Positions 2,870 to 28,940 of a DNA stretch of 34,979 nt are shown here, in pieces; position 1 is the stretch's first letter, and each line of letters begins with the position of its first letter. Below the pieces are notes generated by a model. The model ran no database searches and was not told where the DNA came from. It worked only from the letters and a program-made list of their open reading frames with translations. The translations under genes were made by a program, and so were the position numbers. The stretch covers positions 1 through 34,979 of the forward strand of contig JAURWR010000100.1 in the NCBI GenBank assembly GCA_030654805.1. The letters run 5' to 3'. This DNA comes from Burkholderiaceae bacterium (GTDB taxonomy: Bacteria; Pseudomonadota; Gammaproteobacteria; Burkholderiales; Burkholderiaceae_C).

Positions 2870-3271
2870 GTGCCTGCGTTGAAGGCGCCCGCCAGGCGGC
2901 GCCGCTCGCGCGGCTCGGCCGATGGTTCGACCGAGCCGCCTTCGGTGCAGGCCACGGGCCGGGTGCTGTCGCTCGATGCGCGCCGCATCGAGAAGGCGCT
3001 GGACGCGCGCACCCGCTACAAGTACGTGCACCCGCGTGTCGAACGAGAAGGCCTGGGCTGGAAGATCGTCAGCCCCAACTGCTCGCGCAACATCGATGCG
3101 GAAGGCGGCGAGATCGACATCGCCTGGCTGGTGCCGCACAACGGCGGCGGCTGGCTGCTGTTCTCGCGCAACCATGCACAGGACTGCTGGCAGATGCGCC
3201 ATCACGGCGACTCGCTCCCCGCCGTGCTCGCGCACCTGTGCGCCGATCCGGATCGGGAGTTCTGGCAATGA
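2870..3271 (+). CDS. DUF3024-like nif-associated protein
   Basis: A 133-residue protein of unknown function. The conserved part runs from about residue 33 to the end and includes 'RRIEKAL', 'RYKYVHPRV', 'WKIVSPNCSRNI' and 'GEIDIAWL', a pattern I associate with DUF3024-type proteins next to nifS. A longer ORF starts at 2765, but GTG 2870 is preferred: GGAGG lies at 2859-2863 with six bases spacing, and residues upstream of it read as repeat-like arginine-rich translation that overlaps the nifZ-like gene. The first 30 residues are basic and low-complexity. Its stop overlaps an ATG (ATGA at 3268-3271) that opens a repeat-encoded mini-ORF leading into nifS. Confidence 0.6.
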   Translation: MPALKAPARRRRSRGSADGSTEPPSVQATGRVLSLDARRIEKALDARTRYKYVHPRVEREGLGWKIVSPNCSRNIDAEGGEIDIAWLVPHNGGGWLLFSRNHAQDCWQMRHHGDSLPAVLAHLCADPDREFWQ

Positions 3272-3275
3272 GCAC

Positions 3276-3332
3276 GCTCCCCTCGGGGGACGGCGCGCAG
3301 CGCCTGGGGGCTCCGTTGAGCACGGTGCCGAG
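3276..3332. repeat. 57-bp direct repeat, copy 1 (G/C-tract hairpin element)
   Basis: Copy 1 runs from GCTCCCCTCGGGGGACG to GGTGCCGAG. It matches copy 2 (3351-3407) at 55 of 57 positions by eye. It shows the C-tract, short GC-rich dyad, G-tract architecture of the dispersed family seen elsewhere in the window. Confidence 0.9.
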
Positions 3333-3350
3333 CCGCCTCAAGCCGTGCTC

Positions 3351-3407
3351 GCTCCCCTTGGGGGACGGCGCGCAGCGCCTGGGGGCTCCGTTGAGCACGC
3401 TGCCGAG
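3351..3407. repeat. 57-bp direct repeat, copy 2 (G/C-tract hairpin element)
   Basis: Second copy, 75 bases downstream of the first with an 18-base spacer. The two visible differences are C/T in the CCCTCGGG versus CCCTTGGG turn and G/C near the 3' end (CACGGTG versus CACGCTG). It ends 12 bases before the nifS start. Confidence 0.9.
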
Positions 3408-3419
3408 TGGGGAGTCCCC

Positions 3420-4595
3420 ATGAACGAGCTGGTCTATCTGGACCACAACGCCACGACCCGGCCCTGTGCCGAGGCGGTCGAGGAAATGCTCGGCAGCCTG
3501 CAGGCCGTCTGGGCCAACCCGTCGTCCACCCATGCGCCGGGCCAGGCCGCACGCCGTGCGCTCGTCGATGCACGCGCCCGCGTCGCCGCGTTTCTCGGTT
3601 GCCAGGGGGCGGAGCTCGTCTTCACCAGCGGAGCCACCGAAGCCAACCACATGGCGGTTCTCGGCGCGCTCGAACTCGGCAGCCCGCAGGGCCGCAGGCG
3701 ACTGGTTCTGAGCGCGGTCGAACACCCCGGAATGCTGGCACTGGCTGCTCGCCTGAAAGCGCAGGGGGTCGCGGTCGACCTGATCCCGGTGAACGCGCAG
3801 GGGCAGCTCGATCTCGACGCGGCGCGGTCCCTGATCCGTGACGACGTGGCCCTGGTCAGCGTGATGGGCGCCAACAACGAAACCGGCGTGCTGATGCCGA
3901 CCGCCGATCTGGCGGTGCTGGCGCACGCGGTCGGCAGCCCGTTGCATGTCGATGCGACCCAGCTCGTGGGCAAGACGGCGCTGCGCTTCGATGCCAGCGG
4001 CGCCGACCTGTGGTCGGTGTCGGCGCACAAGGTTCACGGCCCCAAGGGCATCGGCGCGCTGATCGTGCGCAAGGGATTGGCGTGGCCCGCGCTGTTCAGC
4101 GGTCGCCAGGAGCGTCAGCGCCGCGGAGGCACCGAGAACATGCCGGGCATCCTGGGCTTTGCCGCCGCGGCCGAGCGTGCCGGTCTGACGCTGGCCCGCG
4201 ACCTGACCCACATGCGTCATCTGCAAGCCCGGCTCGAAGCCGGGCTGTGCGCGGCGCTGCCCGAGGTTCATCTGTACGGCGCGCAAGCGGATCGGCTGCC
4301 CAACACCAGCTGCCTCCGGTTCGGCGTGCTCGATGCCGAGCAGGTGCTGGGCAAGCTCGAGCGCGCCGGCGTGATCGCGTCGTCGGGAGCGGCCTGCGCC
4401 GCCGGCGGCACCCTGCCTTCGCATGTGCTGACGGCGATGGGCGAAGACGCGGTGCATGCCAAGGCGAGCGTGCGGCTGTCGCTCGGCCGGGACACCGGCG
4501 TCGACGAGATCGATCGCGTGATCGCCGCAACCGTGCAGGCGCTCGGCCCGTTGCTCGAATCCACGCGTGCGCCGGCCGACTCCGTGGCGGCCTGA
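3420..4595 (+). CDS. nifS: NifS cysteine desulfurase
   Basis: A 391-residue PLP enzyme that removes sulfur from cysteine to give alanine and an enzyme persulfide, supplying sulfide for nitrogenase Fe-S clusters. Visible landmarks: 'YLDHNATT' at residues 5-12, 'TSGATEANH', 'ANNETG', the PLP lysine K204 in 'SAHKVHGPKG', 'RRGGTEN', and the catalytic cysteine C326 in 'SSGAACAAG' of class I desulfurases. Length is normal. The start is the ATG in the ATGA at 3420; upstream in-frame sequence is repeat-derived. nifT follows 75 bases after the stop. The partner scaffold NifU is not in this window. Confidence 0.96.
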   Translation: MNELVYLDHNATTRPCAEAVEEMLGSLQAVWANPSSTHAPGQAARRALVDARARVAAFLGCQGAELVFTSGATEANHMAVLGALELGSPQGRRRLVLSAVEHPGMLALAARLKAQGVAVDLIPVNAQGQLDLDAARSLIRDDVALVSVMGANNETGVLMPTADLAVLAHAVGSPLHVDATQLVGKTALRFDASGADLWSVSAHKVHGPKGIGALIVRKGLAWPALFSGRQERQRRGGTENMPGILGFAAAAERAGLTLARDLTHMRHLQARLEAGLCAALPEVHLYGAQADRLPNTSCLRFGVLDAEQVLGKLERAGVIASSGAACAAGGTLPSHVLTAMGEDAVHAKASVRLSLGRDTGVDEIDRVIAATVQALGPLLESTRAPADSVAA

Positions 4596-4670
4596 CATGA
4601 CGGCCCCGACCTCGCTTCGCCTGTGCCCCCGGCTGAAGACCTTTTCCTTGACCCACGGAGTACCCCGACC

Positions 4671-4889
4671 ATGAAAGTGATGATCCGCCGAAGTTCCGCC
4701 GGGGTGCTCTCCGCCTACGTGCCGAAGAAGGACCTTGAAGAACCGATCGTCGCGCAGGACAAGGCGGATCTGTGGGGGGGCACGGTGACGCTGGCCAACG
4801 GCTGGGTGCTGTCGCTGCCGGAGATGGCCGACGGCACCAGCCTGCCGATCACGGTGGAAGCACGTCGCCTGTCGGGCGACGTCGACTGA
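4671..4889 (+). CDS. nifT: NifT/FixU protein
   Basis: A 72-residue protein matching NifT/FixU: 'MKVMIRR' start, 'YVPKKDLEEPIV' and 'LWGGTVTLANGW' motifs. Function is unknown; the gene is conserved in nif operons and usually dispensable. A longer ORF opens at 4623, but ATG 4671 is the family start and has GGAG at 4657-4660 (10 bases upstream). The next gene begins 11 bases after the stop. Confidence 0.93.
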   Translation: MKVMIRRSSAGVLSAYVPKKDLEEPIVAQDKADLWGGTVTLANGWVLSLPEMADGTSLPITVEARRLSGDVD

Positions 4890-4900: not shown

Positions 4901-5155
4901 ATGGACGCCCACATCGTCACCGAAGCCCTCGCGCTGGCCGAATCCGCCGCCAGCGTGCGCGAAGCCGCGCAGGTGCTGCGCGAACACTACGCGCAGCTGC
5001 GCGTCGTCGTCGTCGATGCCTTCGACATGCGCGACGAACACCCCGCCGCAGCCGGTCCGACGCGCACGCTGTACTACGGCGCGAGCGACGGTCACTGCTG
5101 GCAGGTGACCAGCGATCCGGCGCAGGCGGCCGGCTTCTTCCTCGCCGAGGCCTGA
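4901..5155 (+). CDS. small nif-associated protein, function unknown
   Basis: An 84-residue protein. The first 50 residues are helical ('EALALAESAASVREAAQVLREHYAQLRVVVVDAFDM'-like region, residues 8-43). The second half has 'RTLYYGASDGHCWQVTSDPAQAAGFF', reading as a small beta-strand end. No catalytic motif. It sits between nifT (11 bases upstream) and the DegT-like gene (4 bases downstream), so it belongs to the operon. Similar small proteins occur beside nifT in other diazotrophs, but I cannot name the family with confidence. Confidence 0.6.
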   Translation: MDAHIVTEALALAESAASVREAAQVLREHYAQLRVVVVDAFDMRDEHPAAAGPTRTLYYGASDGHCWQVTSDPAQAAGFFLAEA

Positions 5156-5159
5156 ACCG

Positions 5160-6362
5160 ATGAGTGCCTTGGCCGTCATGGATGAAGCCCCGGTCGAAGC
5201 GCCGGACCTCGACCTGCCGGACGACTGGCTGATGCTGTCCGACCCCGACCTCAGCGAGGTCGAACTCGAACTCGTGCAGGCGGCGATGGATCAGCCAAAC
5301 CTGTCGGCCGGCATGATGGTCCGGCATTTCGAAAACAACTTCGCGCAGTGGCTGGGCCGCAAGCACGCCGTGGCTGTGGCCAGCGGCACGCTGGGCACCT
5401 GGCTCGCGCTGCGCGCCCTGGGCATCGGCGAGGGTGACGAGGTCATCGCCTCGCCTTACGGCTGGCACCAGGTGGCTCATGCGGTGAACCTGACCGGAGC
5501 GCGCGTCGTGTTCGCCGACATCAACTACTGGACCGGCTGCCTGGACCCGGTGCGCGCGGCCGCGCAGATCACGCCGGCCACCAAGGCCATCCTGGTCGGC
5601 AACGTCAACGGCCACCCGGCGGCGTGGAAGGAATTCCGCGCGCTGGCCGATGAACGCGGCATCCGCCTCATCGAGGACTCGACCGAAGCCATCGCCTCGC
5701 GCTACCAGGGCCGCATGGTCGGCAGCTTCGGCGATCTTTCGGTGTTCGACTTCTCGCAGCCCGCAGCGCTGTGCTGCGGCGAGGGCGGCATGGTCGTCAC
5801 CGACGACGACGGCCTGGCGATGGAGCTGCGCTACCTGCGCTCGCGTTCGATCCGCGACCGGCGTTCGGTGTCGGTCGGTTCGCGGGTGCCGATGCAGGCC
5901 TCGATCAGCGAACTCACGGCAGCGCTGGGCGCCGGCCAGCTGGCCCGCATCGACGACATCCTGGCCAAGCGCAAGCGCGTCGAAGCCCACTACCACGAGC
6001 AGATGCAGAGCTTCGAGGGCATCAAGCCGCCGTACGTGGCGACCGATGTCGACGAGGTGCACTGGATGATCTACACGGTGCACCTGGGCAAGCGGTTCTC
6101 GGTCAGCACCTGCGAACAGATCATCGACGACATGGCCTCGCAGTACATCGAGGCCGTCCTGTACTGCCAGCCGCTGCACCAGCAGTTTCACTACATCCAG
6201 CAGGGCTACAAGCGCGGCCAGTTTCCGCTGGTCGAGCGCATCGCCGACCGCGCGGTGGCCCTGCCGTTCCACACCCACCTCGAAGCCGACCACGTGAAGT
6301 TCATCGTGACCACGATGAATGACAGCTCGGTCAACGTCGGCGCCGGTGCCGCCATCTACTGA
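5160..6362 (+). CDS. DegT/DnrJ/EryC1/StrS-fold protein lacking the PLP lysine
   Basis: A 400-residue protein of the sugar-aminotransferase (DegT) fold. Visible: 'HAVAVASGTLGTWLALRALGIG' (substrate/PLP phosphate region, about residues 69-91), 'DEVIASPYGWH', the PLP N1-binding aspartate in 'LIEDSTEA', 'GSFGDLSVFDF', and 'GEGGMVVTDDD'. In active members the segment before the GEGG turn carries the Schiff-base lysine (pattern TKNLTTGEGG). Here it reads Q200-P-A-A-L-C-C-G-E-G-G, so the lysine position falls on A202. The protein therefore probably cannot do transamination by the usual route; it may bind PLP, act as a dehydratase-like variant, or be structural. It starts 4 bases after the upstream stop and is 16 bases ahead of the SIR2-like gene. 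Confidence 0.85.
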   Translation: MSALAVMDEAPVEAPDLDLPDDWLMLSDPDLSEVELELVQAAMDQPNLSAGMMVRHFENNFAQWLGRKHAVAVASGTLGTWLALRALGIGEGDEVIASPYGWHQVAHAVNLTGARVVFADINYWTGCLDPVRAAAQITPATKAILVGNVNGHPAAWKEFRALADERGIRLIEDSTEAIASRYQGRMVGSFGDLSVFDFSQPAALCCGEGGMVVTDDDGLAMELRYLRSRSIRDRRSVSVGSRVPMQASISELTAALGAGQLARIDDILAKRKRVEAHYHEQMQSFEGIKPPYVATDVDEVHWMIYTVHLGKRFSVSTCEQIIDDMASQYIEAVLYCQPLHQQFHYIQQGYKRGQFPLVERIADRAVALPFHTHLEADHVKFIVTTMNDSSVNVGAGAAIY

Positions 6363-6378
6363 AGCACAAGGACAGCCC

Positions 6379-7296
6379 ATGCCTTACGCCACGCTCGACT
6401 CCCTGCCCGATGCCCTGATCGACGGCCTGCAGGCCGGCACGCTCGCACCCTACCTGGGCCCGCTCGTGCTGAGCCTGTGCCCGGCGGTGCCGGTGCCGGC
6501 CACGCCGCTGGACCTCGCGACCTTCCTCAACGCGAAGACCTCGGTGCCCGGCAAGATCCGCAACCGGCTGACCGCCGTCGCGCAGTTCATCGAGAACTTC
6601 AAGCATCGCAAGACGCTGGTCACGGCGATGAACGAGGCCTTTGCCGCCACGCCGGAACCGTCGCCGCTGCACCGCTGGCTGGCCGCGCTGCCGTCGCCGG
6701 TGATCGTCGACACCTGGTACGACGACACGATGCGCGGCGCGCTCGCCGCTCGCAGTGGAACGGTGCCCCCAGACGCCTGCGGCGTCGCCCCCCGAGGGGG
6801 TGTCAGCGCCTTGGGGCGGCCCGGCGCCGCTGACTGGGCCGAGGTGCAGGGGCTGTCGCAGTCTGAACACTTCGGCACCTGGACCGGCTGGTACACGGCC
6901 GCCGGCGAACTGAGCCCGGACCCGATCGAGACGACCACGGTGCTCTACAAGCCCTGGGGTGCGCACGGCCCGGCCAGCAACTACCTGGTCTCGGACACCG
7001 ACTACGTCGAGGTGCTGACCGAGATCGACATCCAGACGCCGATCCCGGCGCTGGTGCAGCAGCGGCGTGCCGAGTTCGGGTTCGTGTTCCTCGGCTGCCG
7101 CTTCAACGACCAGCTGCCGCGTGCCTTTGCGCGCCAGATCATGAAGCGCTCGAAGGGCCCGCACTACGCCGTGCTGCCCGACGAACCGACGCGCATGGAA
7201 GCGCGCTTTCTCGAAGAGCAAGGCATCACCCGCATCGCGATGCCGCTGGCCGACGTGGCGGCGCAGCTCACGGCGGGCGTGGCCGTCGCTGCCTGA
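6379..7296 (+). CDS. SIR2-like protein (SIR2_2 type) with an in-frame repeat insertion
   Basis: A 305-residue protein resembling prokaryotic SIR2_2 proteins: a glycine turn 'YLGPLVLSL' near residue 14, 'PSPLHRWLAALPSPVIVDTWYDD' around 94-116 (the usual TTNYDD position reads D-T-W-Y-D-D), 'YKPWGAHGP' where family members have KxHG, 'LVSDTDYVEVL', and 'FGFVFLGCRFNDQLPRAF' (the LFLGYSxxD motif). Catalytic-site residues look altered, so NAD hydrolysis or deacylation is uncertain. Residues about 126-151 (6754-6831) are translated from the dispersed hairpin repeat and interrupt an otherwise normal sequence without breaking the frame. ATG 6379 is chosen over the upstream in-frame start because it follows AAGGA and clears the preceding stop. 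Confidence 0.7.
   Translation: MPYATLDSLPDALIDGLQAGTLAPYLGPLVLSLCPAVPVPATPLDLATFLNAKTSVPGKIRNRLTAVAQFIENFKHRKTLVTAMNEAFAATPEPSPLHRWLAALPSPVIVDTWYDDTMRGALAARSGTVPPDACGVAPRGGVSALGRPGAADWAEVQGLSQSEHFGTWTGWYTAAGELSPDPIETTTVLYKPWGAHGPASNYLVSDTDYVEVLTEIDIQTPIPALVQQRRAEFGFVFLGCRFNDQLPRAFARQIMKRSKGPHYAVLPDEPTRMEARFLEEQGITRIAMPLADVAAQLTAGVAVAA
6763..6831. repeat. dispersed G/C-tract hairpin repeat inside a coding sequence
   Basis: The segment has a C-tract, a perfect 6+3+6 hairpin (GACGCC-TGC-GGCGTC at 6772-6786), then CCCCCCGAGGGGG. The hairpin plus flanks (AGACGCCTGCGGCGTCGCCC, and three further C) is identical to the reverse complement of bases in the 32962-32990 copy. It lies in frame within the SIR2-like gene. 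Confidence 0.85.
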
Positions 7297-7372
7297 ATGC
7301 ATGCCTGAATGCGCGCCTGCGCCCCCCGGCATTTCTGACCCCATCCCACCTGTCATTTCAAGGAGACCTTCC

Positions 7373-7672
7373 ATGACCACACTCACCATCCTCCCGTCCG
7401 GCAAGACCTTCGAGTTCAGCGCCGGTGCCAACCTGCTGCAGTCCATCCTCGACGCCGGTGAGAAGCTCGTCAGCAAGTGCGGCGGGGAGGCCAAGTGCGG
7501 TGCCTGCCACCTCTCCGTCACCGAGGGCCGCAAGGGCGTCTCGAAGATCACGGCGGCCGAGAACGCCAAGCTCGACACCCTCGTGGGCATCGGCAGCAAG
7601 TCGCGCCTGGCCTGCCAGATCACGCTGCTGGGCACCGAGCCCGTCACGGTCGAACTGCTCAGCGGGATTTGA
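7373..7672 (+). CDS. 2Fe-2S ferredoxin, nif-associated
   Basis: A 99-residue plant-type ferredoxin. Ligands are C36-x5-C42-x2-C45 and C81 (in 'SRLACQ'), the canonical fold pattern. It starts at ATG 7373 with AAGGAG at 7360-7365, a strong ribosome binding site. In-frame ORF extension upstream to 7301 is not supported. It likely carries electrons to nitrogenase maturation or to neighbouring flavoproteins: the genes that follow encode an FAD enzyme and an Fe-S oxidoreductase subunit. Which partner it serves cannot be seen. Confidence 0.9.
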   Translation: MTTLTILPSGKTFEFSAGANLLQSILDAGEKLVSKCGGEAKCGACHLSVTEGRKGVSKITAAENAKLDTLVGIGSKSRLACQITLLGTEPVTVELLSGI

Positions 7673-7676
7673 GAGG

Positions 7677-7745
7677 GCCCCCACGTCGCTGCGCTCCTGC
7701 CCCCCGAGGGGGCGCCTCCTGGTCGCCCGGGGAACCCGGGCTTGG
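7677..7745. repeat. dispersed G/C-tract hairpin repeat (variant)
   Basis: Downstream of the ferredoxin stop the sequence reads GGGCCCCCACGTCGCTGCG, then a CCCCCCGAGGGGG turn (near 7702-7714), then CCCGGGGAACCCGGG, a perfect 6+3+6 dyad. The architecture matches the other copies, but the internal dyad differs. It fills part of the 159-base gap before the FAD enzyme gene and could act as an attenuator. Confidence 0.65.
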
Positions 7746-7831
7746 GGAGTGGCTTGAGGGGGCGGACTCGCTGCGCTTCGTCCTTCGTGCTCTGGGCTGG
7801 GTCGGTCGTATTGTTTTCGTTGGGAGATTTC

Positions 7832-9529
7832 ATGCTCGACGTTGCCATCATCGGTGGAGGGCTGTGCGGTCTGGCGCTGGCGCACAGCCTGCAGGCGCGC
7901 GGGTGCGACTGGCGCCTGTTCGAGGCGCGTGAACGACTGGGCGGCCGGGTGCTGACCGCGAAGGCGGGCGACGGCACACCGGTCGATCTGGGCCCGACGT
8001 GGTTCTGGCCGCACACCCAGCCCACGATCACGCGGCTGGTCGCCGACCTCGGGCTCACCAGCTTCGAGCAGCTCGACGACGGTCGGGTGCTGCATCTGTG
8101 CGACCCGAACCGTGTGCCGCAAACCGTCTCGCTGACCGAACAACTGGTGCCGGCCGACGACCCATCGACGCCCGCCACGGCCGGGGCAGTGCACGGCGGT
8201 GCGCGGCGTGTGGCCGGGGGTGTCGGCGCGGTGATCGATGCGCTGGCCCTGCCGTTGCCAGGCGCGCGCCTGCGTGCGGGTCATCGCCTCGAAGCGGTCG
8301 TCGACCACGGCGATTTCGTCGAGCTGCGTCTGCGTTTCGGGGAAGCGTCCTACTCGGTCAACGCGCGTCGCGTGGTGCTCGCGCTGCCACCGCGAGTGGC
8401 CGACGCCAGCGTGCAGTTCGTTCCCGATCTGGCGCCGGACGTCCGTGCCGCCTTGCAGGCCACGCCGACCTGGATGGCCACCGCCGCCAAGGCCGGATTC
8501 ACCTACTCACGCGCGTTCTGGCGTGACGGTGGCCACACCGGCAATGCCTGGGTGAGCCACGCCCAGGCGATGCTGTCCGAAGTGTTCGACGCCTGCGATC
8601 CGCCCGAGGGCGCGGCTCGCTCACCCGGCGCCGCGCTGGCCGGTTTTGCCGCGTTGAATGTCGCGCAGCGAGAGAGCTTCGCGCGCGGCCGCGACCTGCT
8701 GCTCGAAAGCCAGATGGTCCAGCTCTTCGGGCCCGAGGCGGCCGACCCGGCGCTGCAGCCGCAACGGTTCTGGCACGACTGGGCGCTCGACACCGAAACC
8801 TGCAGCCCGATCGATCGGGCCTCGGACGCGCTGCCGGTCGGCAGCCACCCGCACCATGGCGATCCGGTGCTGGCCGAAGCGCACTGGGACGGAAGGCTTC
8901 ATTTCGGTGGCTCGGAGACCGCGCGTCAGGGCGGCGGCTATCTCGAAGGGGCGCTGGTCGCCGCAGGCCGGCTGCGCCGCCAGTTGCTGGCCGGCACGAT
9001 GGACACGTTCCGACCTCGCGAAGCCGCCAACGACAGGCTCGACGTCAGCGAGCGGGATGCCGGCAACGAACAGCACCTCGAACGCTTCGCTGCCTGGGTG
9101 GCCTCCGAACACGGCCACGCGATGGCGCGCTACCGCGAGCGCGTGCACCAAGCCCTGTCGCAGCAGGAAGCCGACGGCCTCACGCAGCGGTCGGTCGTGT
9201 CGTCGATCGAGTCGATCTATGTCGCTGCCCTGCAGCAGCTCGACACGCTGCCGCTCGTGACTGCGCACCTGTCCGTCGAGAACCCCGGCCGCTGTGCGCT
9301 GACGCCGCGCGTGCTCGAACTGTTCACCGGTCGGGCGGACCAGTTGCTTGCCGACGCGGTGATTTTCAACAACACCTCGTGCGCGCTGTCGAATTTCCCG
9401 TTCGAACATCGCCCCAGCGGTGACTACGTTCGCAGCATCCGCCGCGATCTGGCCTCGGCCTGGCAGTCGTTCAGCGCGGCGGCCAACGAGCGCCTGCTGG
9501 CCAAGGCGCGCAGCGTCGTGTCGGCCTGA
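7832..9529 (+). CDS. FAD-dependent amine-oxidase-type oxidoreductase with extra C-terminal domain
   Basis: A 565-residue protein. Residues 1-395 are a flavin amine oxidase: dinucleotide-binding 'AIIGGGLCG' at 5-13, 'LFEARERLGGR' ending the second strand, and near the end 'LHFGGSETARQGGGYLEGAL', the FAD pyrophosphate-binding motif. From about residue 396 to the end lies an additional mostly helical region ('ANDRLDVSE...' to 'KARSVVSA') that standard amine oxidases lack; it contains 'NNTSCALSNFPFEHRPSGDY'. Start ATG 7832 follows GGGAG at 7821-7825. No signal peptide is seen, so it is cytoplasmic. The downstream Fe-S protein starts 7 bases after the stop, which suggests the two form an electron-transfer pair. 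Substrate unknown. Confidence 0.8.
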   Translation: MLDVAIIGGGLCGLALAHSLQARGCDWRLFEARERLGGRVLTAKAGDGTPVDLGPTWFWPHTQPTITRLVADLGLTSFEQLDDGRVLHLCDPNRVPQTVSLTEQLVPADDPSTPATAGAVHGGARRVAGGVGAVIDALALPLPGARLRAGHRLEAVVDHGDFVELRLRFGEASYSVNARRVVLALPPRVADASVQFVPDLAPDVRAALQATPTWMATAAKAGFTYSRAFWRDGGHTGNAWVSHAQAMLSEVFDACDPPEGAARSPGAALAGFAALNVAQRESFARGRDLLLESQMVQLFGPEAADPALQPQRFWHDWALDTETCSPIDRASDALPVGSHPHHGDPVLAEAHWDGRLHFGGSETARQGGGYLEGALVAAGRLRRQLLAGTMDTFRPREAANDRLDVSERDAGNEQHLERFAAWVASEHGHAMARYRERVHQALSQQEADGLTQRSVVSSIESIYVAALQQLDTLPLVTAHLSVENPGRCALTPRVLELFTGRADQLLADAVIFNNTSCALSNFPFEHRPSGDYVRSIRRDLASAWQSFSAAANERLLAKARSVVSA

Positions 9530-9536
9530 GCAGTCC

Positions 9537-11029
9537 ATGCCGTTCCAGGCACTCGATCTCCAGCTCGACTGGACCCCTTACTACAGCTACGGCGAGGGAG
9601 ACGCCTACGCCGCGCTGCCGGCGCACGGCGCCGGGTTCGGCAAGGCCGCCGCGCTGTGCATCGGCAGCCGCCAGTGTCAGAAGGCCATCGGACAAGCCGG
9701 CGAGAAGGGGGTGATGTGTCCGAGCTTCCGCGTCACGCAGGACGACCTGCACAGCACGCGCGGACGGGCGGCGCTGCTGCGCGATGCGTTGAACGGCACG
9801 CTCGGCGATCGGCCCTTCGTCGATGGCGCACTGGACGCCGCGATGGCACTGTGCGTGGCCTGCAAGGGCTGCAAGCGCGAGTGTCCGAACGGGGTCGACA
9901 TGGCTGCGCTGCGCGCCGAAACACTGGCTCAGCGCTGGGCCGGCGGGCAGCGGATGTCGCTGCGCGCGCGTCTGTTCGCGGACTTGCCGCACTGGTTGCC
10001 GCGTCTGCGGGCCTGGCGCTGGGCCGTCCTGCCCGCACTGGCGTTGCGCGAACGGATCCCCTTGCTGGCACGCGCCGTCGAACGCGTTCTGGGCATCGCG
10101 GCGCGGCGCTCGCTGCCGCGGCCGGCGGCCCGGCCTTTCCTGACGCACGCCACGGCCTCGGTGGCGCCGAGCGAGGCGTCGTTGCCGGAGGTGGTGCTGC
10201 TGGTCGACTGCTTTGCCAATCACCTGGAGCCCGATGTCGCGCATGCCGCACTGAGCCTGCTCGAATCGAGCGGCAACCGAGTGCACCTGCTGCGCCCGAC
10301 GGACGGCGGTGCGGCGCTGTGCTGCGGCCGCACCGCGTACTCGTCGGGACGCATCGATGCGGCGCGGGCACACGCGCAGCGTCTGCTCGACGCGCTGGCC
10401 CCGCATGTGGCGGCGGGGCGCAGCGTGGTCGGCCTCGAACCCTCGTGCCTGAGCATGCTGCGCGACGAAAACCACCAGCTCGGGCTCGACGCGTCCCGCG
10501 TCCAGGCCGTGTCGAAGGCGTCCTTGATGCTCGAAGAATTCCTGGCGCGTGAGCTGGAGGCCAAGCGCTGGGTTCCGGGAACCCCGAGGCCTTCGGCGTT
10601 GACCGATCCCCGGAGCGCGGAAAGCGGTGCAGATCCAGATCGGCCCGCGCCAGACCGGGCGCAGCCCGGCGCTGATCAGCCGCCCATCCAGGTGCTCGTC
10701 CACGGCCACTGCCACCAGAAGGCGTTCGGCACGCTGAAGGCGCTGCGCAAGGTGCTCGGCGCGTTGGCGGGCGTGCAGGTCGACTGGGTCGAGTCGAGCT
10801 GCTGCGGCATGGCCGGCAGCTTCGGCTACGAGGCCGAGCATTACGACCATTCGATGCGGATGGCCGAGCTGGCGTTGCTGCCGGCCGTGCGCGCCGCGCA
10901 GCCCGAGGCGCACGTCGTCGCCAGCGGCACCAGTTGCCGGCAGCAGATCCGCGATGGCGCCGGGCGCGACTCGCTGCACCTGGCGCAGCTGCTGCATCGG
11001 CTGCTGGCCGCGCCCAGCGGATCCGTTCG

Positions 11030-11033
<4 letters not shown>
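9537..11033 (+). CDS. Fe-S oxidoreductase with two CCG domains (GlpC/GlcF/HdrD-like)
   Basis: A 498-residue protein. A first cysteine cluster near residues 40-62 ('CIGSRQCQKAIG' to 'VMCPSF') and a second, 'CVACKGCKRECPNGVD' near 105-120, bind 4Fe-4S clusters. Two CCG domains follow: 'VDCFANHLEPD' to 'ALCCGRTAYSSG' to 'EPSCLSM', and 'VHGHCHQKAFG' to 'ESSCCGMAGSFGYE' to 'SGTSCRQQI'. This is the layout of the Fe-S subunit or domain of glycerol-3-phosphate, glycolate and D-lactate dehydrogenases. Residues 343-383 are a Pro/Arg/Asp-rich linker between the CCG domains that looks foreign. It starts 7 bases after the flavoprotein stop and overlaps selO by ATGA (11030-11033). Confidence 0.82.
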
Positions 11034-12475
<1,442 letters not shown>

Positions 12476-12491
12476 TGCCCGGAGCCCCGAC

Positions 12492-14231
12492 ATGAAACTG
12501 CAACTCGACCGCCCCCACGTGCTGGCCCTGGCGGGTCGATTCCCCGCGCTCGGCGAGGGCCTGCAGGACCAGCTGCGCTTTGGCCACCGCATCGAGCTGC
12601 GTTCGCACACCCTGCCGATCGAGGCGCTCGAATTTCTCGCCCGGCTCTATGAGGACGCCGGCGCCGCGCTGGCCGGTCGCGCCGCGCCCTCGCACGATCT
12701 GCTCGGGCGCGCCTCGCAGGTGCGCGGCCTGGTCGCAGCGCTGCGCAGCGAGTCGCCGCGCTTCGGGCCCGGTGATGCGCTCGAAGCCGTGCTGCCCGCG
12801 GTGGTGCGCTACCTCGCGCAGGACAGCGCGCGCGGCTGGCTGTTCGCGGCCAACGTCGCCGGCAAGCCGCTGGCGTGGGTGCCCACGCGCATCGACTTTG
12901 TCATCGGCTCGTCTGAAGAGCTGGGCAAGGTCATGGTCGAGCTGAAGGCGAACGCGCGCGGCGCGCTGATCTCGCAATCGCTGCGCTTCACCGAGGCCGA
13001 CCTGAACGGCAAGACGGTGGCCGAAATGCTGGCGTCGAAGGGTTTCCTGAAAGAGACGCCGGAGCTGCTGGCCGCCTACGACGCTTCGGCTGCGCGCTAC
13101 TTCGACTGGCGCGGGCACTACGGTGGCCAGTTCGCGGGGCAGGGCGTCGCCTTCCTGGCCGAAGACCCGAGCGCCACGCACCGCGACTCCGACTGGACCC
13201 GCAAGGACCAGGTGATCCTGAGCGCCGGTGGCAATGCGGCACGCCTGGTCAACGACGAAGGCATCCTGCCGCCGCGCAGCACCGGACTCGAGTCGCCCGG
13301 CGACATCCTCGCGCCGTACCTGCGCCGCGCCGCGAAGAGCAGCGACTACGACTGCGAAGAGGAGGTCAAGGCGCTCGACGCCAGCCTGCCCGCACACCTG
13401 TTCAAGCAACTGCCGGTGCAGGCGTACCTGTTCCTGTTCCACCTCGAACTGCACCAGCACCTGTGGGTGCACGTCGACGACATCGCGCCCTACGTCTACC
13501 AGCCGATGCTCAAAGACAAGCTGGTGCTGCCCCCCGAGCAGACCGAGCTGATCGACATCCTGACCGCCGAGATGGACGTGCTGCAGGACGACGTCGTGGC
13601 GGGCAAGGGCGGCGGCACCACCGTGCTGTGTGCGGGCCCACCGGGCGTGGGCAAGACGCTCACTGCCGAGGTCTATGCCGAAGTCACCGGCCGGCCGCTG
13701 TACCGCGTCCACTCCGGACAACTCGGGTTGAGCGTCGGTGCGATGGAGACGGCATTGAAGGAAGCGCTGACCCGTGCGCAGCGCTGGGGCGCGGTGATGC
13801 TGATCGACGAGGCCGATGTCTATATCCGCAAGCGCAGCGACGACATCGCTGCCAACGCGGTGGTCGGCGTGTTCCTGCGCGTGCTCGAATACTTCGATGG
13901 CCTGTTGTTCCTGACCACCAACCGCATCGACGACATCGACGAGGCCATCGTCTCGCGCTGCATCGCGCTGATCCGCTACCACTCGCCCGATCAGCTGGCG
14001 CGCGAACGCATCTGGCGCGTGATGGCCGAGCAGTTCGGGCTGGCGCTCGACGACGCGCTGATCACCACGCTGGCCGCCTGCTACCCGCAGGCCAGCGGTC
14101 GCGACATCAAGGGTCTGGCCAAGCTGGTGGCCAAGTTCTGCGTCCACAAGGCGGCGCTGCCGACGCTCGACGTATTCGCCCGTTGCGCGATGTTCCGTGC
14201 ACTCGATGCCAACCCGGTCGAGGCGGATTGA
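12492..14231 (+). CDS. AAA+ ATPase, nif-associated
   Basis: A 579-residue protein. Residues 1-350 are an unrecognised N-terminal region, probably a substrate-binding domain. The AAA+ module follows, with Walker A 'GPPGVGKT' at 382-389 (K388), Walker B 'VMLIDEAD' with D439/E440, 'FLTTNRIDDIDEAIVSRC' carrying sensor 1 and the arginine finger, and 'ASGRDIKGLAKL' as sensor 2. Such ATPases remodel or unfold partners. The start ATG is 16 bases after the selO stop, and the stop overlaps the next start by one base (TGATG 14229-14233). A role in moving or remodelling a nif factor is inference. Confidence 0.85.
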   Translation: MKLQLDRPHVLALAGRFPALGEGLQDQLRFGHRIELRSHTLPIEALEFLARLYEDAGAALAGRAAPSHDLLGRASQVRGLVAALRSESPRFGPGDALEAVLPAVVRYLAQDSARGWLFAANVAGKPLAWVPTRIDFVIGSSEELGKVMVELKANARGALISQSLRFTEADLNGKTVAEMLASKGFLKETPELLAAYDASAARYFDWRGHYGGQFAGQGVAFLAEDPSATHRDSDWTRKDQVILSAGGNAARLVNDEGILPPRSTGLESPGDILAPYLRRAAKSSDYDCEEEVKALDASLPAHLFKQLPVQAYLFLFHLELHQHLWVHVDDIAPYVYQPMLKDKLVLPPEQTELIDILTAEMDVLQDDVVAGKGGGTTVLCAGPPGVGKTLTAEVYAEVTGRPLYRVHSGQLGLSVGAMETALKEALTRAQRWGAVMLIDEADVYIRKRSDDIAANAVVGVFLRVLEYFDGLLFLTTNRIDDIDEAIVSRCIALIRYHSPDQLARERIWRVMAEQFGLALDDALITTLAACYPQASGRDIKGLAKLVAKFCVHKAALPTLDVFARCAMFRALDANPVEAD

Positions 14232-14587
14232 TGTACCACCGCTCGCTCTACGACATCGTGATGGAGACCGGCCGCTCGATCGGCCTGCTGACGAAGGAAA
14301 TGCAGGGCGAGGACGAGCTGTTCGCCAGCGCGCTCACGCTGCGCGCGGTCGAGGCGCAGCTGCTCATCATGGCGCACACGCTGGGCAACGTCACGCCGGC
14401 GCTGCACCAGCGCCTGATACAGGTCGACTGGATCGGCTGGGCTGCGTTGCACGACAAGCTGCGCAACGGCGTGCAGCCGCGCCGCGAAGAAATCTGGTAC
14501 GCCGTCAACGGCCTGGTGCCGCAGACGATGGCCCTGTTGCTGGCGCTGCGGCGCAAGCAGCCGGTGTGGTTCGAAGTCGGCTACTGA
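14231..14587 (+). CDS. degenerate HepT-like protein coupled to the AAA+ gene
   Basis: A 118-residue all-helical protein. The pattern of helices, 'LYDIVMETGRSIGLL' at the start and 'VDWIGWAALHDKLRNGV' followed by 'EEIWYAVNGLVPQTMALL', resembles HepT-type (DUF86) proteins, where the central motif is R-x4-H-x-Y. At the corresponding place this protein has H74-x4-N79-x-V81, so none of the three active residues is kept. It is therefore not expected to be an RNase, and it has no nucleotidyltransferase antitoxin beside it. It is coupled by TGATG to the AAA+ ATPase and may be its adaptor. The HepT relation is my pattern reading and could be wrong. Confidence 0.5.
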   Translation: MYHRSLYDIVMETGRSIGLLTKEMQGEDELFASALTLRAVEAQLLIMAHTLGNVTPALHQRLIQVDWIGWAALHDKLRNGVQPRREEIWYAVNGLVPQTMALLLALRRKQPVWFEVGY

Positions 14588-14604
14588 GATTGAAGGACAC
14601 GGTC

Positions 14605-15582
14605 ATGGCAACTCCCCGACTCGGCTATCTGTGCCTGTGCGAAAACCCCAGCGCCGAAGACGGCCGCGCGCTGATCCGCCAGTTCGTGCTGGTGCGCGAG
14701 GCCGACCGCATGGGCTACGACGACATCTGGCTCGGCGAACACCATCATGACCGTGCGTGGCCGAGCGGCGCGGTCACGGCCCTGCTGGGCCACCTGGCGG
14801 CCGTCACCTCGAAGGCACGCATCGGGTCGATGGTGCTGGCGCCGGCCACGCGCGATGCGTTTCAGCTGGCCGAGGACGTGGCCACGATCGATCTGCTGTC
14901 GAAGGGCCGATTCGAGTTCGGCGTGGCCCGCGGTCTGGCGTGGGCCGGCAGCCCGAACGCCGCGCCCGCCGACGCGGTCGAAGCGCGCAGTCGCCTGCGC
15001 CGTGCGATGGCGCTGATCCAGGACCTGCTGGCCGGCCAGCCCGTGCCGGGCCTGGCCGGTGTCGCGCCCGTGACCCTGGTGCCGACCCCGGCGCAGCAGC
15101 CGTTACCGGTGTGGGTCGCCAGCGGCGACGAGTCCCTGCTGCGCCACGCGGCCGAGCGCGGCTGGGGCCTGATGGCGGCCGCCACGCACAGCCGGGCGCG
15201 CGTGCAGCGCGCGGTGCAGATCTACACCGACGCCAGCGGCGGCCGTGCACCGGCGCTCGTACTGGCGCGCTTTGCCTGCACCGCGCCCACGCGCGACGAA
15301 GCGGTGGCGATCGCGCAGCCGTATTTCGATACCTTCGCCGCGCGGGCGCGGGCCACCGGATGGGGCGCGAATCGCGATCGCTCGATCGCCTGCGATGCGC
15401 AGGCGCTGCTCGACGAGTCGCTGATCGGCAGCCACGCCGAAGTGGCCGCGCAGTTCAAGGCGCTGGCAGACACTTGTGGCGCGAGCCGCGTGGCCATCGT
15501 GCCCACCAGCGCGCAGTTCGACACCCACAAACACATCCTGGCCGACTTCGTCGACGAGGTGCGGCCGCTGTTCGAGGAGTGA
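14605..15582 (+). CDS. LLM-class (luciferase-like) flavin-dependent oxidoreductase
   Basis: A 325-residue luciferase-like monooxygenase-fold protein. Visible: 'YDDIWLGEHHHDRAWPSGA' (the E-H-H motif typical of the family, about residues 38-55), 'IGSMVLAPATRDAFQLAEDVATIDLLSKGRFEFGVARG' (FMN-binding strand and loop), and 'LPVWVASGDESLLRHAAERGWGLM'. These enzymes use FMN or F420; FMN is likelier in a betaproteobacterium. LLM enzymes are known passengers of nif clusters, but the substrate is unknown. It is 17 bases after the HepT-like gene and is the last gene of the tightly packed operon. Confidence 0.85.
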   Translation: MATPRLGYLCLCENPSAEDGRALIRQFVLVREADRMGYDDIWLGEHHHDRAWPSGAVTALLGHLAAVTSKARIGSMVLAPATRDAFQLAEDVATIDLLSKGRFEFGVARGLAWAGSPNAAPADAVEARSRLRRAMALIQDLLAGQPVPGLAGVAPVTLVPTPAQQPLPVWVASGDESLLRHAAERGWGLMAAATHSRARVQRAVQIYTDASGGRAPALVLARFACTAPTRDEAVAIAQPYFDTFAARARATGWGANRDRSIACDAQALLDESLIGSHAEVAAQFKALADTCGASRVAIVPTSAQFDTHKHILADFVDEVRPLFEE

Positions 15583-20528: not shown

Positions 20529-21173
20529 CTATCGATAGCCTTCCTCGCGCAGCACGCGTTGCACCACCGGCCGTGCGCGCACGCGCTGGTAGTGCGCGGC
20601 GCAGCGCGGCGGCAGCGTGAGGCCGATCTTGTCGGCCCAGAACTCGACATAGAACAGCGCCGCATCGGCGACCGAGAAATCGGCGCCGGCCGCGTAGCCC
20701 GCGTCGGATAGACGCGCATCGATGATCGCGAAGCCCAGGCCGACGATCTCGCGCCCGCGCGCTGCAATCGCCTCCTGCCAGCCGGCGCGCTCTGCGGGAT
20801 CGAGTCCGGGCGGCAGGTAGCTGTCGGTCGTGAAGATGCGCGTGTAGCCCTGGCCGTGCACCGTGCCCACCACGTGGTCCATCAGCTCGATGGCGAACGC
20901 GGCCTGCAACGGGTCGGTCGGCAGCAGCCGCGCGCGGGGATGGCGGCAGGCGAGCCAGTACGCGATGGCCTGGAACTCGGTCAGCACGCGGCCATCGTCC
21001 AGACGCAGCGCCGGGATCGAGCCCTTGGGATTGAGCGCCAGGTAATCGGGACGGCGGTGATCGCCCGCCGGCAGGTTCAGCACCGTCACCTCGAACGGCA
21101 GTTCGAGCTCTTCGAGCAGGATGTGGATGCCGGTCGAGCACGAGCCCGGCGTCATGTAGAACATCAGCGTCAT
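20529..21173 (-). CDS. glutathione S-transferase-family protein, nif-associated
   Basis: A 214-residue GST. Thioredoxin-fold N-terminus: 'MLFYMTPGSCSTGIHILLEEL'-like region (first 20 residues, with S/C-x-x-S of beta-class type), 'NPKGSIPALRLDDG' with the cis-proline, and 'LTEFQAIAYWLA' (glutathione gamma-glutamyl contact; active-site E-S becomes E-F). The C-terminal helical domain includes 'FSVADAALFYVEFWADKIG'. GSTs of this type occur in nif regions and may protect against oxidants. Start ATG 21173 is picked by homology, with AAGG upstream. The gene is divergent from the DUF2779 gene (124 bases) and convergent with the glycosyltransferase gene. Confidence 0.85.
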   Translation of the reverse strand: MTLMFYMTPGSCSTGIHILLEELELPFEVTVLNLPAGDHRRPDYLALNPKGSIPALRLDDGRVLTEFQAIAYWLACRHPRARLLPTDPLQAAFAIELMDHVVGTVHGQGYTRIFTTDSYLPPGLDPAERAGWQEAIAARGREIVGLGFAIIDARLSDAGYAAGADFSVADAALFYVEFWADKIGLTLPPRCAAHYQRVRARPVVQRVLREEGYR

Positions 21174-21297
21174 GACGGTGGCCTTGCAAGATGCATGACA
21201 GCCCCGCCAGGGCATCGCGTCTGCCTCTGCACGGCGATTGCTACACAGGGAATATCCAACCCCGTCCGGCGTGACCTCGTGTCGCGTTTGTCCGCTT

Positions 21298-22860
21298 ATG
21301 CCCCTGCTTGCCGACGACTCCTTGCTGAACGACGACGACCTGCGCCGCTGGCGCGCCTGCGAGCGGCGCTTCTGGCTGCACCGCCGCGTGGCGATCGACC
21401 GTCCCGGGCCCGCTGCGATCGAGGTCCGCGCCGATCTCACCGGCGAAGCTGCGGTGGTCTGCGGCCCGCAGCCCGGCGATGCCTTGCGAGCCACGTTTCC
21501 CGGCGCGGTCGTCATCGACGCGCCGACCACGCCGACCGGCTGGCAGGCGGCCGTGCAGCACACGTCGGACTGCCTGCGCGACAAGCGCATGCAGGCCGAA
21601 GGGCGTGCCCTCTTCGGGGCCTGCCTGGTCAGCGACGACGGCGTGCAGGTGCGCATCGACGTGCTGGCGCGCGGCGAACACGGCCTGCGGATGTTCAAGG
21701 TCCGCCACGCCACGGTGGGTGACGAAGCCGATGTCGATGACGTGGCGCTGTGGGTGCACGTCGCGGCGCGTTGCGGGTTGCGCCTGGAGAGTGTTGGCCT
21801 GTTGCTGGTGGACACCGATTTCGTCTACCCCGGACACGGCTGCTATGCGGGGCTGTTTCGGGAAGTGGATCTGAGTCCGGTGCTGGGATCGCGACCGGTG
21901 GCCCGCTGGTTGGTGGACATGCGCACCTGCGACCGCGGCTCCGAGCCTGCCGCCGAGTCGGGTGCGAAGTGCCGACTGCACGGCGGCTGCGACTTCGTCG
22001 ACCACTGCCGCGCGCAGGCGCCTCTGGCGGCGCAGACGGGCATCGACAGCGCGGGCCCGGCCCAGCTGGAGATCGTCGGCCGCGAACAGGCGGTCGACTT
22101 GCGCCGCGAAGGGCATGCCGATCTGTACAGCGTGCCGCCCGAGCGCCTGGCCGATGCGCGGCATCGCCGCGCGGTGCGTGCCACCCAGCAAGGCGCGCCG
22201 ATCCTCGAGCCGGCCGTCGCGGCGCTGATGCGCGCGCATCCGTATCCGCGCCACACGCTGCGCTTCGACACCATCGGCTTTGCCGTGCCGGTGTGGTCCG
22301 GCACGCAGCCCTACCAGGTGCTGCCGTTTCAGTGGACCTGCGATGTCGAGCCGGCACCGGGCGAGCGGGTGCGGCACGCCTTCCTCGCCGATCGATACGG
22401 CGATCCGCGCCGCGCTTTCGCACTGACGCTGTTGCAGGCGCTGGGCCGCAGCGGGCCGGTGTTTGCGTACAACGCCGGGTTCGAGCGCAACCGCATCCGC
22501 GAGCTGGCGCAGCACTTCGAGGACCTGAGCGAAGCGCTCGAAGCGCTGCTGCCACGGGTCGTCGACCTGTTCCAGATCGCCCGCACGCATTACTACCACC
22601 CGGCGATGCGTGGCTCGTGGTCGTTCAAGTCGGTGTTCCGCTCGATCGCGCCCGAGCTGGACGCGACCCGCTTCGACTGCGCCGGCGAGACCTCGTCCCA
22701 GGCGGCCTTCGCCCACTACCTGCAACCCGGACTCGACGCCACCACGCGAGAGCGGCTGCGCCAAGCGCTGCGCCTGCACGGCGAACGCCAGATCGAGGCC
22801 TTGCACCGCATGGTCGCGATGTTCGAGCGCGCGGACTCGGGTTCTGCGCCGGTGGCCTGA
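21298..22860 (+). CDS. DUF2779 nuclease-like protein
   Basis: A 520-residue protein. The first half looks like a Cas4/AddB-style nuclease domain ending in C225-x5-C231-x5-C237, a possible Fe-S site. The second half matches the DUF2779 DnaQ-like fold: 'RFDTIGFAVPVWSGTQPYQ', 'LPFQWTCDVE', 'AYNAGFERNRIRELA', 'VVDLFQIARTHYYHPAMRG' and 'SWSFKSVFRSIAPEL'. Family members usually read D-F-E at the first catalytic strand; here it is R322-F-D324, so metal binding may be reduced. ATG 21298 is used; an in-frame TTG at 21238 gives 20 more residues that lack homology. DNA processing is a family guess; no link to nitrogenase is evident. Confidence 0.7.
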   Translation: MPLLADDSLLNDDDLRRWRACERRFWLHRRVAIDRPGPAAIEVRADLTGEAAVVCGPQPGDALRATFPGAVVIDAPTTPTGWQAAVQHTSDCLRDKRMQAEGRALFGACLVSDDGVQVRIDVLARGEHGLRMFKVRHATVGDEADVDDVALWVHVAARCGLRLESVGLLLVDTDFVYPGHGCYAGLFREVDLSPVLGSRPVARWLVDMRTCDRGSEPAAESGAKCRLHGGCDFVDHCRAQAPLAAQTGIDSAGPAQLEIVGREQAVDLRREGHADLYSVPPERLADARHRRAVRATQQGAPILEPAVAALMRAHPYPRHTLRFDTIGFAVPVWSGTQPYQVLPFQWTCDVEPAPGERVRHAFLADRYGDPRRAFALTLLQALGRSGPVFAYNAGFERNRIRELAQHFEDLSEALEALLPRVVDLFQIARTHYYHPAMRGSWSFKSVFRSIAPELDATRFDCAGETSSQAAFAHYLQPGLDATTRERLRQALRLHGERQIEALHRMVAMFERADSGSAPVA

Positions 22861-22887: not shown

Positions 22888-23007
22888 TAGAACCCTTCTT
22901 CCTTGCTCCCCCACGGGTGGTTGCAGGGCACCAGTCTGGCCTGGATACCGGCCGTTCGAGCGCGGCCAGGTCCTCGTAGAAGGTGGCCTCGTGCATCAGG
23001 ATGCCGC
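22888..23007 (-). pseudogene. broken copy of the small gene at 28941-29204
   Basis: The reverse strand reads 'LMHEATFYEDLAALER', then after a one-base loss near 22949-22952 continues in another frame as 'AGIQARLVPCNHPWGSKEEGF' and the same TAG stop. The intact gene at 28941-29204 carries both pieces in one frame with closely related DNA. The 5' half is absent. This is a truncated, frameshifted duplicate. Confidence 0.85.
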
Positions 23008-26354: not shown

Positions 26355-26356
26355 TC

Positions 26357-27073: not shown

Positions 27074-27154
27074 TCTGGCGCAGCCGGAAATCTGAGGCAC
27101 GACAGCATCCCCGCACTGACTCCAGTAGGTTCACTTGCCCTGCCACGGCGCAGG

Positions 27155-28009: not shown

Positions 28010-28144
28010 GCCGGCGGGCAGGGCGGTTGCCGCATCAAGGTGACGACGACGGGCCACAGGATTTGCTTCGAAAGTCGCGAGCCTCGCGGAGGCTGACGGA
28101 CCACCGAGGGTGCAGGCTGCCGATTTCGTCGAGGTTCGCAGTGG

Positions 28145-28173: not shown

Positions 28174-28178
28174 GCGGC

Positions 28179-28466: not shown

Positions 28467-28477
28467 GAGCAATCAGG

Positions 28478-28795: not shown

Positions 28796-28940
28796 CTCTG
28801 TGGCAGCTAGGCGCCGGTGATGCCCAACCCTTCCATCGAGACGACGTGCCCCAGAAAACCCGACGGTAGTGGCCTGACCTAAACCAATCAGCCTCCACGA
28901 ATTCCAGGGCGGTTCACCCTAGAACTTCGAGCGCACCGTC

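Follow-up and report, generated by a model that had tools for sequence, protein, structure and literature searches.

This report concerns nine genes at positions 5160 to 15582 of contig JAURWR010000100.1 (assembly GCA_030654805.1), from a Burkholderiaceae bacterium. The contig is 34,979 nucleotides long, and this whole stretch is called the window. It belongs to a 3.87-Mb draft assembly, labelled G000 here, and its 3' end falls inside nifH. A preliminary description read the nine genes as a single accessory operon that may serve nitrogenase. A link to the nitrogen fixation (nif) genes is well supported by sequence comparison for eight of the nine, all except the last. One intact nine-gene unit is not supported.

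The first gene (5160-6362; Pfam PF01041, 1.6e-87) encodes a DegT/DnrJ fold without the pyridoxal phosphate (PLP) lysine, and the second a SIR2_2 fold (frame 6319-7296, likely start about 6379; Pfam PF13289, 3.9e-18). They are written DegT* and SIR2*, where the asterisk marks family members with replaced catalytic residues. Because SIR2* homologues begin at about 6379, the overlap of these two frames is probably not real. Next come a 2Fe-2S ferredoxin (Pfam Fer2; frame 7301-7672, domain from about 7373) and AO, an amine-oxidase flavoprotein that is a monoamine-oxidase-type flavin adenine dinucleotide (FAD) protein (7832-9529; Pfam Amino_oxidase, 1.1e-35). CCG is a stand-alone 4Fe-4S dicluster/CCG protein (9537-11033; Pfam and NCBIfam), and SelO is of the protein adenylyltransferase family (11030-12475; Pfam, 5.6e-108). 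The run ends with an AAA+ ATPase (12492-14231; Pfam AAA, 2.6e-18, at residues 378-491), a small HepT-like protein (14231-14587, from an alignment of its nif-linked family) and an LLM flavin enzyme (14605-15582; Pfam, 3.1e-39). All nine read on the plus strand, with the ATGA overlap at the SelO start (11030) and the TGATG overlap at the HepT-like gene that had been described before. The widest gap inside the run is about 160 bp (7672 to 7832).

The nine reading frames are real, but the start of the operon at 5160 was set too late: nif genes from fdxN to an 84-amino-acid gene precede it. These also read on the plus strand. Searched by tblastn with annotated Paraburkholderia nif genes, fdxN matches from 77 and the LRV Fe-S protein from 1391; between them lie an IscA/HesB-like gene (103-723; Pfam Fe-S_biosyn) and a TPR gene (744-1364; Pfam TPR). 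Then follow two copies of nifZ (2154-2489 and 2530-2814; Pfam NifZ), a nifS-like class-V aminotransferase gene (2922-4595; Pfam, NCBIfam) and nifT (4623-4889; Pfam, NCBIfam). The 84-amino-acid gene (4901-5155) stops 4 bases ahead of DegT*. A Pfam scan of it found nothing above the cut-off; it is DUF6129-like by position, the gene at the same place being named DUF6129 in a Bradyrhizobium nif record.

A SIR2* scan of a collection of 84,980 species gave at least 594 pattern matches, at least 566 of which encode a relative, and the best 80 loci were kept. Their gene content was read by tblastn with E up to 1e-5, in loci of which some end at contig ends. Among these best 80 loci nifT is found in 74, DegT in 71, the 84-amino-acid gene and the nifS-like gene in 70 each, and the ferredoxin in 64. 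The remaining genes of the run are found less often: AO in 36, HepT-like in 28, AAA+ in 7, SelO in 6, CCG in 2 and LLM in 1 (L008). These counts do not support nine genes as one conserved unit. LLM is sporadic, either a passenger or a late member. One further locus (L182, G058:C8) has CCG beside an LLM gene with 53% identity to that of the window, the two reading apart; its contig differs from the SIR2* contig of the same genome.

The conserved nifB-type operon order is fdxN-iscA-TPR-LRV-nifZ-nifZ-nifS-like-nifT-DUF6129-like-DegT-SIR2-Fdx. Paraburkholderia has the identical order, and in Methylococcus the ferredoxin stands ahead of SIR2. On a Bradyrhizobium plasmid SIR2 follows nifT, and a separate, unannotated DegT match lies elsewhere in two pieces. 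Plasmids of Rhizobium tropici and Sinorhizobium terangae read nifA-nifB-fdxN-nifZ-nifT-SIR2, with no DegT. Among 72,556 plasmid records, 75 match SIR2*. The top four plasmid matches to DegT* have 63 to 52% identity and all lie in nif clusters, one of them that of Paraburkholderia sprentiae; the fifth drops to 34%. The ferredoxin is nearest to the Isc type (PDB 3ah7 and 1i7h), with NCBIfam fdx_isc below its cut-off. None of the nine is a classical nif gene by name, as had been noted, yet the strongly conserved SIR2* is part of nifB operons in alpha-, beta- and gammaproteobacteria. The linkage of DegT* and the ferredoxin is judged by neighbourhood only, and that of SelO by its clade.

Members of the SIR2 family have been met in nif clusters before. 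In the available excerpts of PMC6925177, Rcc03262 of R. capsulatus was not found in the proteome of a nifA1-A2 deletion, and its operon is given as nifB1-rcc03265-nifZT-rcc03262. Excerpts of PMC8600466 describe ZMO1821 of Z. mobilis as upregulated during N2 fixation, and its authors suggest a deacetylase role; the protein is also listed, with a SIR2-like domain, in the Z. mobilis nif cluster in the accessible part of PMC8594446. One figure legend on Rhodovulum (in PMC9412634) places a SIR2-like gene after nifT. The excerpts of PMC8305402 and PMC3912193 contain no mention of DegT or SIR2.

DegT* matches the profile of its family (PF01041), and the claim that it is lysine-less holds: Ala202 faces the lysine of 3bn1 in the alignment. 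Over 72 rows the lysine column contains Ser 52 times, Gly 7, Leu 6, Ala 3 and a gap 4 times, so the Schiff-base lysine is found in 0 of 68 rows with a residue. The segment around this column has no Lys or His in any of the 68 whole rows. A second set, which includes the window, has the lysine in 0 of 12 rows.

For SIR2* the catalytic Asn column was placed by PDB alignment as well, and the His column by comparison with the sirtuin motif. The Asn column holds Trp in 80 of 81 rows, with one gap; the His column of the same rows holds Ile 36 times, Trp 33, Leu 8, Met 3 and one gap. The SIR2* profile finds SIR2 NADases such as KomC, ThsA and 9v0g, and the Trp faces the catalytic Asn of 9v0g (Ala in 9v12). 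In a wider set of 44 rows, where eight genes are present twice, the Asn column reads Trp 28, Gly 1 and Asn 15. His is kept in 12 of these rows and Asn in 15 others, and no row has both. SIR2* therefore matches Pfam PF13289 without the joint catalytic Asn and His.

DegT* and SIR2* look like pseudoenzymes, because the PLP lysine and the Asn and His pair, respectively, are not kept in any row. With no row holding both Asn and His, the deacetylase idea for the Z. mobilis member (PMC8600466) appears doubtful for the family examined; ZMO1821 itself lies outside the alignment. A distant SIR2* clade (L105-L119, 24-27% identity) keeps the Asn and has Leu or Met for the His. A nif gene could be mapped in 10 of its 15 fetched stretches, and 4 have a NifA/sigma-54 site of their own.

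The order sample consists of 300 genomes, with SIR2* counted at E up to 1e-20 and nifH above its curated cut-off. SIR2* is present in 47, nifH in 45 and both in 43 (p 7e-46 without G000; lineages are not independent, and all p values are a guide). Four genomes have SIR2* and no qualifying nifH: G000 (whose nifH runs off the contig), G030, G135 and G161. The reverse holds for G111 and G132. All 11 genomes with only a distant SIR2* (E 5.6e-29 to 1.1e-21) are nifH-positive. At phylum level, with SIR2* counted at E up to 1e-8, a sample of 398 genomes has SIR2* in 17, nifH in 37 and both in 13. In many genomes only part of the first-look candidates for SIR2* and nifH was scored (8 of 18, for example), which makes misses possible in these counts.

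AAA+ (E up to 1e-60) is found in 22 of the 300 genomes, 18 of them near full-length (E up to 1e-241). Of these 18, 16 are nifH-positive, one is G000 with its cut nifH, and one is G135, which has SIR2* (p 8e-14 without G000). In the other four the match is mainly to the ATPase part, and they have no nifH. AO, HepT-like and CCG were searched in all 45 nifH-positive and in 35 nifH-negative genomes of the order sample. The profiles came from nif loci, a bias towards nif relatives, and for AO and CCG no more than 18 candidates per genome were scored. At E up to 1e-30, AO is found in 14 of 45 against 0 of 35, two being weaker (E about 1e-85), and HepT-like (E up to 1e-26) in 16 of 45 against 0 of 35. 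Weak HepT-like matches (E 1e-6 to 1e-8) occur in G201 and in the nifH-negative G015 and G002. Stand-alone CCG, with frames of 444-716 amino acids, is found in 9 of 45 against 0 of 35; CCG matches in nifH-negative genomes are in frames of 986-1178 amino acids, or in one of 136. The suggested link to nitrogen fixation is borne out by this: SIR2*, full-length AAA+, AO, HepT-like and stand-alone CCG are nearly confined to nifH genomes in the sample.

Within the 45 nifH-positive genomes several of these genes also go together: AAA+ with AO (p 1.2e-4), AAA+ with HepT-like (p 8.7e-4), AO with HepT-like (p 1.2e-4), HepT-like with CCG (p 0.0057) and AAA+ with CCG (p 0.039). AO is counted here at E up to 1e-148 (12 genomes). 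Physical adjacency was judged from tblastn matches with a gap of up to 1200 bases and minimum identities of 52% for SelO and 45% for CCG. By number of lineages, with f1 and "other beta" pooled by the analyst, the adjacent pairs are AAA-GST 5, AAA-HepT 4, AO-HepT 4, SelO-HepT 3, AO-Rieske 3, AO-CCG 2 and SelO-AAA 2, in varying order. In relatives the kit also includes genes for GST, FAH, Rieske, Grx4 and BolA, and a GST gene often adjoins the AAA+ gene in other genomes. The closest relative, the Rhizobacter metagenome-assembled genome of L027, reads AO-CCG-SelO-AAA-HepT, with no LLM. Three AAA+ loci (L131, L132, L137) have no other kit gene.

The AO profile matches 8p84 and putrescine oxidases. 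Its C-terminal 165 or so amino acids (window 9032-9526) have no Pfam match, and the AO match ends before this region in 5 of 6 f35 and 1 of 2 f38 AO genomes. CCG resembles GlpC and the C-terminal half of YdiJ. Both CCG motifs are present in 12 of 13 rows, the last motif of L101 being cut by the locus end; of the two 4Fe-4S motifs, the second has CA in place of CP in L165-L167. The protein belongs with the YdiJ/GlpC type. The AAA+ protein has an N-terminal region of about 370 amino acids without a known domain. The motifs of its Walker A, Walker B, sensor and Arg-finger regions (GPxGVGKT, LIDEAD, TTNR and SRC) are invariant in 18 rows, as befits a classical-clade AAA+ ATPase. On plasmids 330 records match, the best being the Methylococcus nif plasmid (61%).

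The label "HepT-like" calls for a correction: the window protein itself has no Pfam match at E up to 5. Of two homologues scanned, one comes near the HepT-like profile (22.8 bits against a cut-off of 23.5) and one has no match. The RNase motif of HepT is R-x4-6-H, and the 20-row alignment has no invariant or near-invariant Arg or His. An identity as HepT toxin was rejected on the lack of a profile match, of the conserved Arg and His and of a named defence match.

SelO is common, with 34 matches in 29 of the 34 genomes searched. The tree has 26 proteins and includes 22 of the 34 matches; outside it are those of G226, G005, G029, G003, G023, G059, G046, G128, G016 and G012 and second copies in G047 and G014. 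Short end pieces in L043, L054 and L075 and the repeat L134 (L155 again) were also left out, and only the rows of G002, G007 and G049 come from nifH-negative genomes. The nine SelO proteins of nif clusters or kit loci fall into a single clade (support 100/99): those of the window, L027, L045, L070, L102, L141, L155, L160 and L164 (a 323-amino-acid piece). Their hosts are Sphaerotilaceae, Comamonadaceae, f35, f38, f50 and Methylococcus. A second SelO is present in G000, G286 and G124. Among plasmids the SelO of the Methylococcus nif plasmid matches best (55%), and the next is at 46%. The window protein and its relatives keep the nucleotide- and metal-binding motifs and the C-terminal Cys. The clade at nif and kit loci fits the earlier guess of protein modification.

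A promoter pair was defined as a TGT-N10-ACA site and a -24/-12 element matching at 9 or more of 11 letters, separated by 40-200 bases. The loci, with L088-L100, L103, L120 and L121 left out, have 284 such NifA/sigma-54 pairs, multiple upstream sites being counted apart, where three block shuffles average 7.3. Many stand where they are expected, before nifH, nifB and fixA. A lead gene is one that has no gene mapped on its strand in the 250 bases upstream. Lead genes with a pair number 46 of 53 for nifH and 64 of 75 for nifB, and in the kit 7 of 13 for AO, 7 of 9 for CCG and 9 of 18 for HepT-like (one gene counted twice, in L160 and L174). SIR2* has 4 of 34. No pair stands at lead genes for DegT (0/8), ferredoxin (0/16), Rieske (0/6) or LLM (0/1), or for the controls HK1 (0/13), HK2 (0/7), MoABC (0/24) and DUF2779 (0/8). 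Random 500-base windows have a pair in 404 of 20,000 cases, real nif promoters included.

The window as a whole has 20 sigma-54 matches against 18.3 expected, and 3 upstream sites against 3.6. Its only pairs are before nifH (NifA-type upstream site 34161-34176 and sigma-54 site 34257-34272, both plus strand) and before a truncated haemoglobin gene. The nine genes would then be served by the nifB promoter, expected 5' of the contig start. Between 4600 and 16000 a sigma-70 promoter scan found none, and the 6 terminators against 3.9 expected are uninformative. The truncated haemoglobin gene (33605-34060) reads away from nifH and has its own sigma-54 site; in the loci a site precedes 24 of 29 lead haemoglobin genes.

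The rest of the window holds further genes 3' of the nine: a histidine kinase, GT41, GST, DUF2779 and other regulators, and then a zinc ribbon, a nifO-like gene, ankyrin, the truncated haemoglobin and nifH (tblastn match from 34413 to the contig end at 34979, plus strand, cut there). The GST-fold open frame (20529-21815, minus strand, GST domains at about residues 217-416) has 60% identity to the GST of the Methylococcus nif plasmid. The DUF2779 protein (21238-22860) recurs in 8 of the 80 nif loci. Positions 23000-29000 have a lower GC content (0.61 at 23-27 kb) and hold a histidine kinase, a response regulator, a Crp-type regulator and an addiction-module antidote; this stretch is perhaps a later insertion inside the nif region. 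An Rfam scan of the window at gathering thresholds gave no match, and a tRNA scan none. G000 also has a second nifB-to-AAA cluster (L120, G000:C92:1-10841) with 57-81% identity to the window proteins, and a second nifH piece (L121, G000:C57). With an assembly contamination of 3.87%, this points either to two nif clusters or to DNA from a second organism.

The reading we prefer, to which we give about an even chance, is that two sets of the NifA regulon are fused here: one with pseudoenzyme scaffolds, and a redox-upkeep kit for nitrogenase or its maturation proteins. The nif linkage, the residue loss, the SelO clade and the promoters in relatives are computed; all biochemical steps we infer. 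The first set, DegT*, SIR2* and the ferredoxin, would be the end of a nifB-nifZ-nifT operon. DegT* and SIR2* are probably ligand-binding scaffolds or sensors in the maturation of the nitrogenase cofactor or clusters, beside NifB, NifZ and NifT. The second set, AO, CCG, SelO, AAA+ and HepT-like, with GST, FAH, Rieske, Grx4 and BolA in relatives, would be a variable kit that has come under nif control. It probably serves redox upkeep: glutathione and Fe-S handling are suggested by GST, Grx4 and BolA, electron transfer by AO together with CCG or Rieske, and remodelling by AAA+. AO would pass electrons with CCG or Rieske. Under oxidising conditions the nif-linked SelO would adenylylate a target. 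The AAA+/HepT-like pair may remodel or extract damaged client proteins.

Several observations weigh against this fusion of two sets. In the phylum sample 24 of 37 nifH-positive genomes have no SIR2* match, and the nif cluster of Paraburkholderia sprentiae has DegT and no annotated SIR2. Within nifH-positive genomes AO and CCG co-occur no better than chance (p 0.45), so the kit is not fixed. More distant plasmid relatives of AAA+, at about 38-43% identity over 82-86% of the length, show no nif link, and clade SelO is not always an extra copy, being the only SelO in G206 and G037. A promoter pair is found at none of 6 SelO, 1 of 13 AAA+ and 1 of 16 GST lead genes, and none lies within the nine genes of the window.

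A bolder version, possible but on the whole unlikely, joins the parts into a nif-specific system of AMPylation and remodelling. The dedicated SelO clade, the AAA+/HepT-like remodeller and the AO/CCG relay would covalently switch or rescue nitrogenase, a ferredoxin or a maturation factor as oxygen rises, while the dead DegT* and SIR2* sense metabolites in the nifB operon. It is distinctly unlikely that AO, CCG and the ferredoxin instead form a chain feeding low-potential electrons directly to nitrogenase or a maturation enzyme, the main guess of the preliminary description. AO does adjoin CCG in f1 and f48 and Rieske genes in f38, f48 and f50, the cluster motifs of CCG are kept, and the lead genes of both often have NifA/sigma-54 sites. 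But the chance-level co-occurrence of AO and CCG counts against such a chain, amine-oxidase-type flavins are usually high-potential, and SelO, AAA+ and GST are left unexplained by it. That DegT* and SIR2* are active enzymes, for instance a lysine deacylase acting on nitrogenase, would agree with the strong conservation of SIR2*, with the 12 rows keeping His and the 15 others keeping Asn, and with the rise of ZMO1821 during N2 fixation for which, in the excerpts of PMC8600466, that role is proposed. It is very unlikely, given 0 of 44 rows with both residues, Asn and His each in 0 of 80 in the 81-row set, the Trp facing the Asn of 9v0g, and the missing DegT* lysine.

The space from the ferredoxin to the zinc ribbon and nifO might also be a hot spot that collects unrelated genes. 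Gene content 3' of the ferredoxin differs widely among the best 80 loci, and LLM, the histidine kinase and GT41, which follow in the window, are matched in 1, 3 and 1 of them. Yet AO, CCG, HepT-like and AAA+ track nifH even from other contigs, and the frequent NifA/sigma-54 sites of AO, CCG and HepT-like make a passenger status hard to hold for those three; as an account of the region we rate it as having little probability. An anti-phage defence island built on SIR2 and AAA+ is extremely improbable. PADLOC matches SIR2* to ThsA (2.4e-4) and AAA+ to IetA (3.8e-13), but SIR2* is coupled to nifH, sits in nifB operons and has its NADase residues replaced. The defence island was rejected on this co-occurrence and on PADLOC giving part-protein matches only and no named system.

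In open-licence literature no paper was found on DegT with nifB and nifZ, nor one combining any three of SelO, amine oxidase, DegT, AAA ATPase and a nif gene cluster. In the same literature SelO with nitrogenase led to one paper, in which selO is an item among rpoN-mutant transcripts, and DegT with nitrogenase and nif led to two; no description of the five-gene redox and protein-modification kit was found there. Which proteins nitrogenase needs in oxygen-using bacteria is still an open matter, and the transfer of nif to other hosts depends on that set. Several families act as nif genes and bear misleading enzyme names or none. AMPylation is a possible new layer in nitrogen fixation.

Known systems resemble parts of this arrangement. 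ColD and the pyridoxamine phosphate (PMP)-dependent CDP-6-deoxy-hexulose-3-dehydrase E1 have a DegT fold without the Schiff-base lysine, as DegT* does, and E1 works also with a 2Fe-2S cluster. In these dehydrases a His replaces the lysine; DegT*, unlike them, mostly has Ser at that column, Ala in the window, and no His nearby. CCG shares its 4Fe-4S and CCG motifs with YdiJ, GlpC and GlcF, but differs from YdiJ in being a stand-alone, nif-linked frame without the FAD domain. The rcc03262 gene of R. capsulatus, like the window gene, follows nifZ-nifT in a nifB operon, and for rcc03262 and ZMO1821 NifA-dependent or N2-induced expression is in print (PMC6925177 and PMC8600466, both in excerpt). 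The Z. mobilis authors, in that excerpt, think of a deacetylase, whereas in the family here every row examined is short of one or more catalytic residues.

SelO proteins adenylylate redox proteins. The window SelO has the motifs and the redox Cys pair of the known adenylyltransferase, and differs in its separate clade, whose nine tree members all come from nif clusters or kit loci. Nitrogenase is controlled by DraT and DraG through ADP-ribosylation. A nif-linked SelO would likewise be a covalent, nucleotide-based modification, but one of the AMPylation family.

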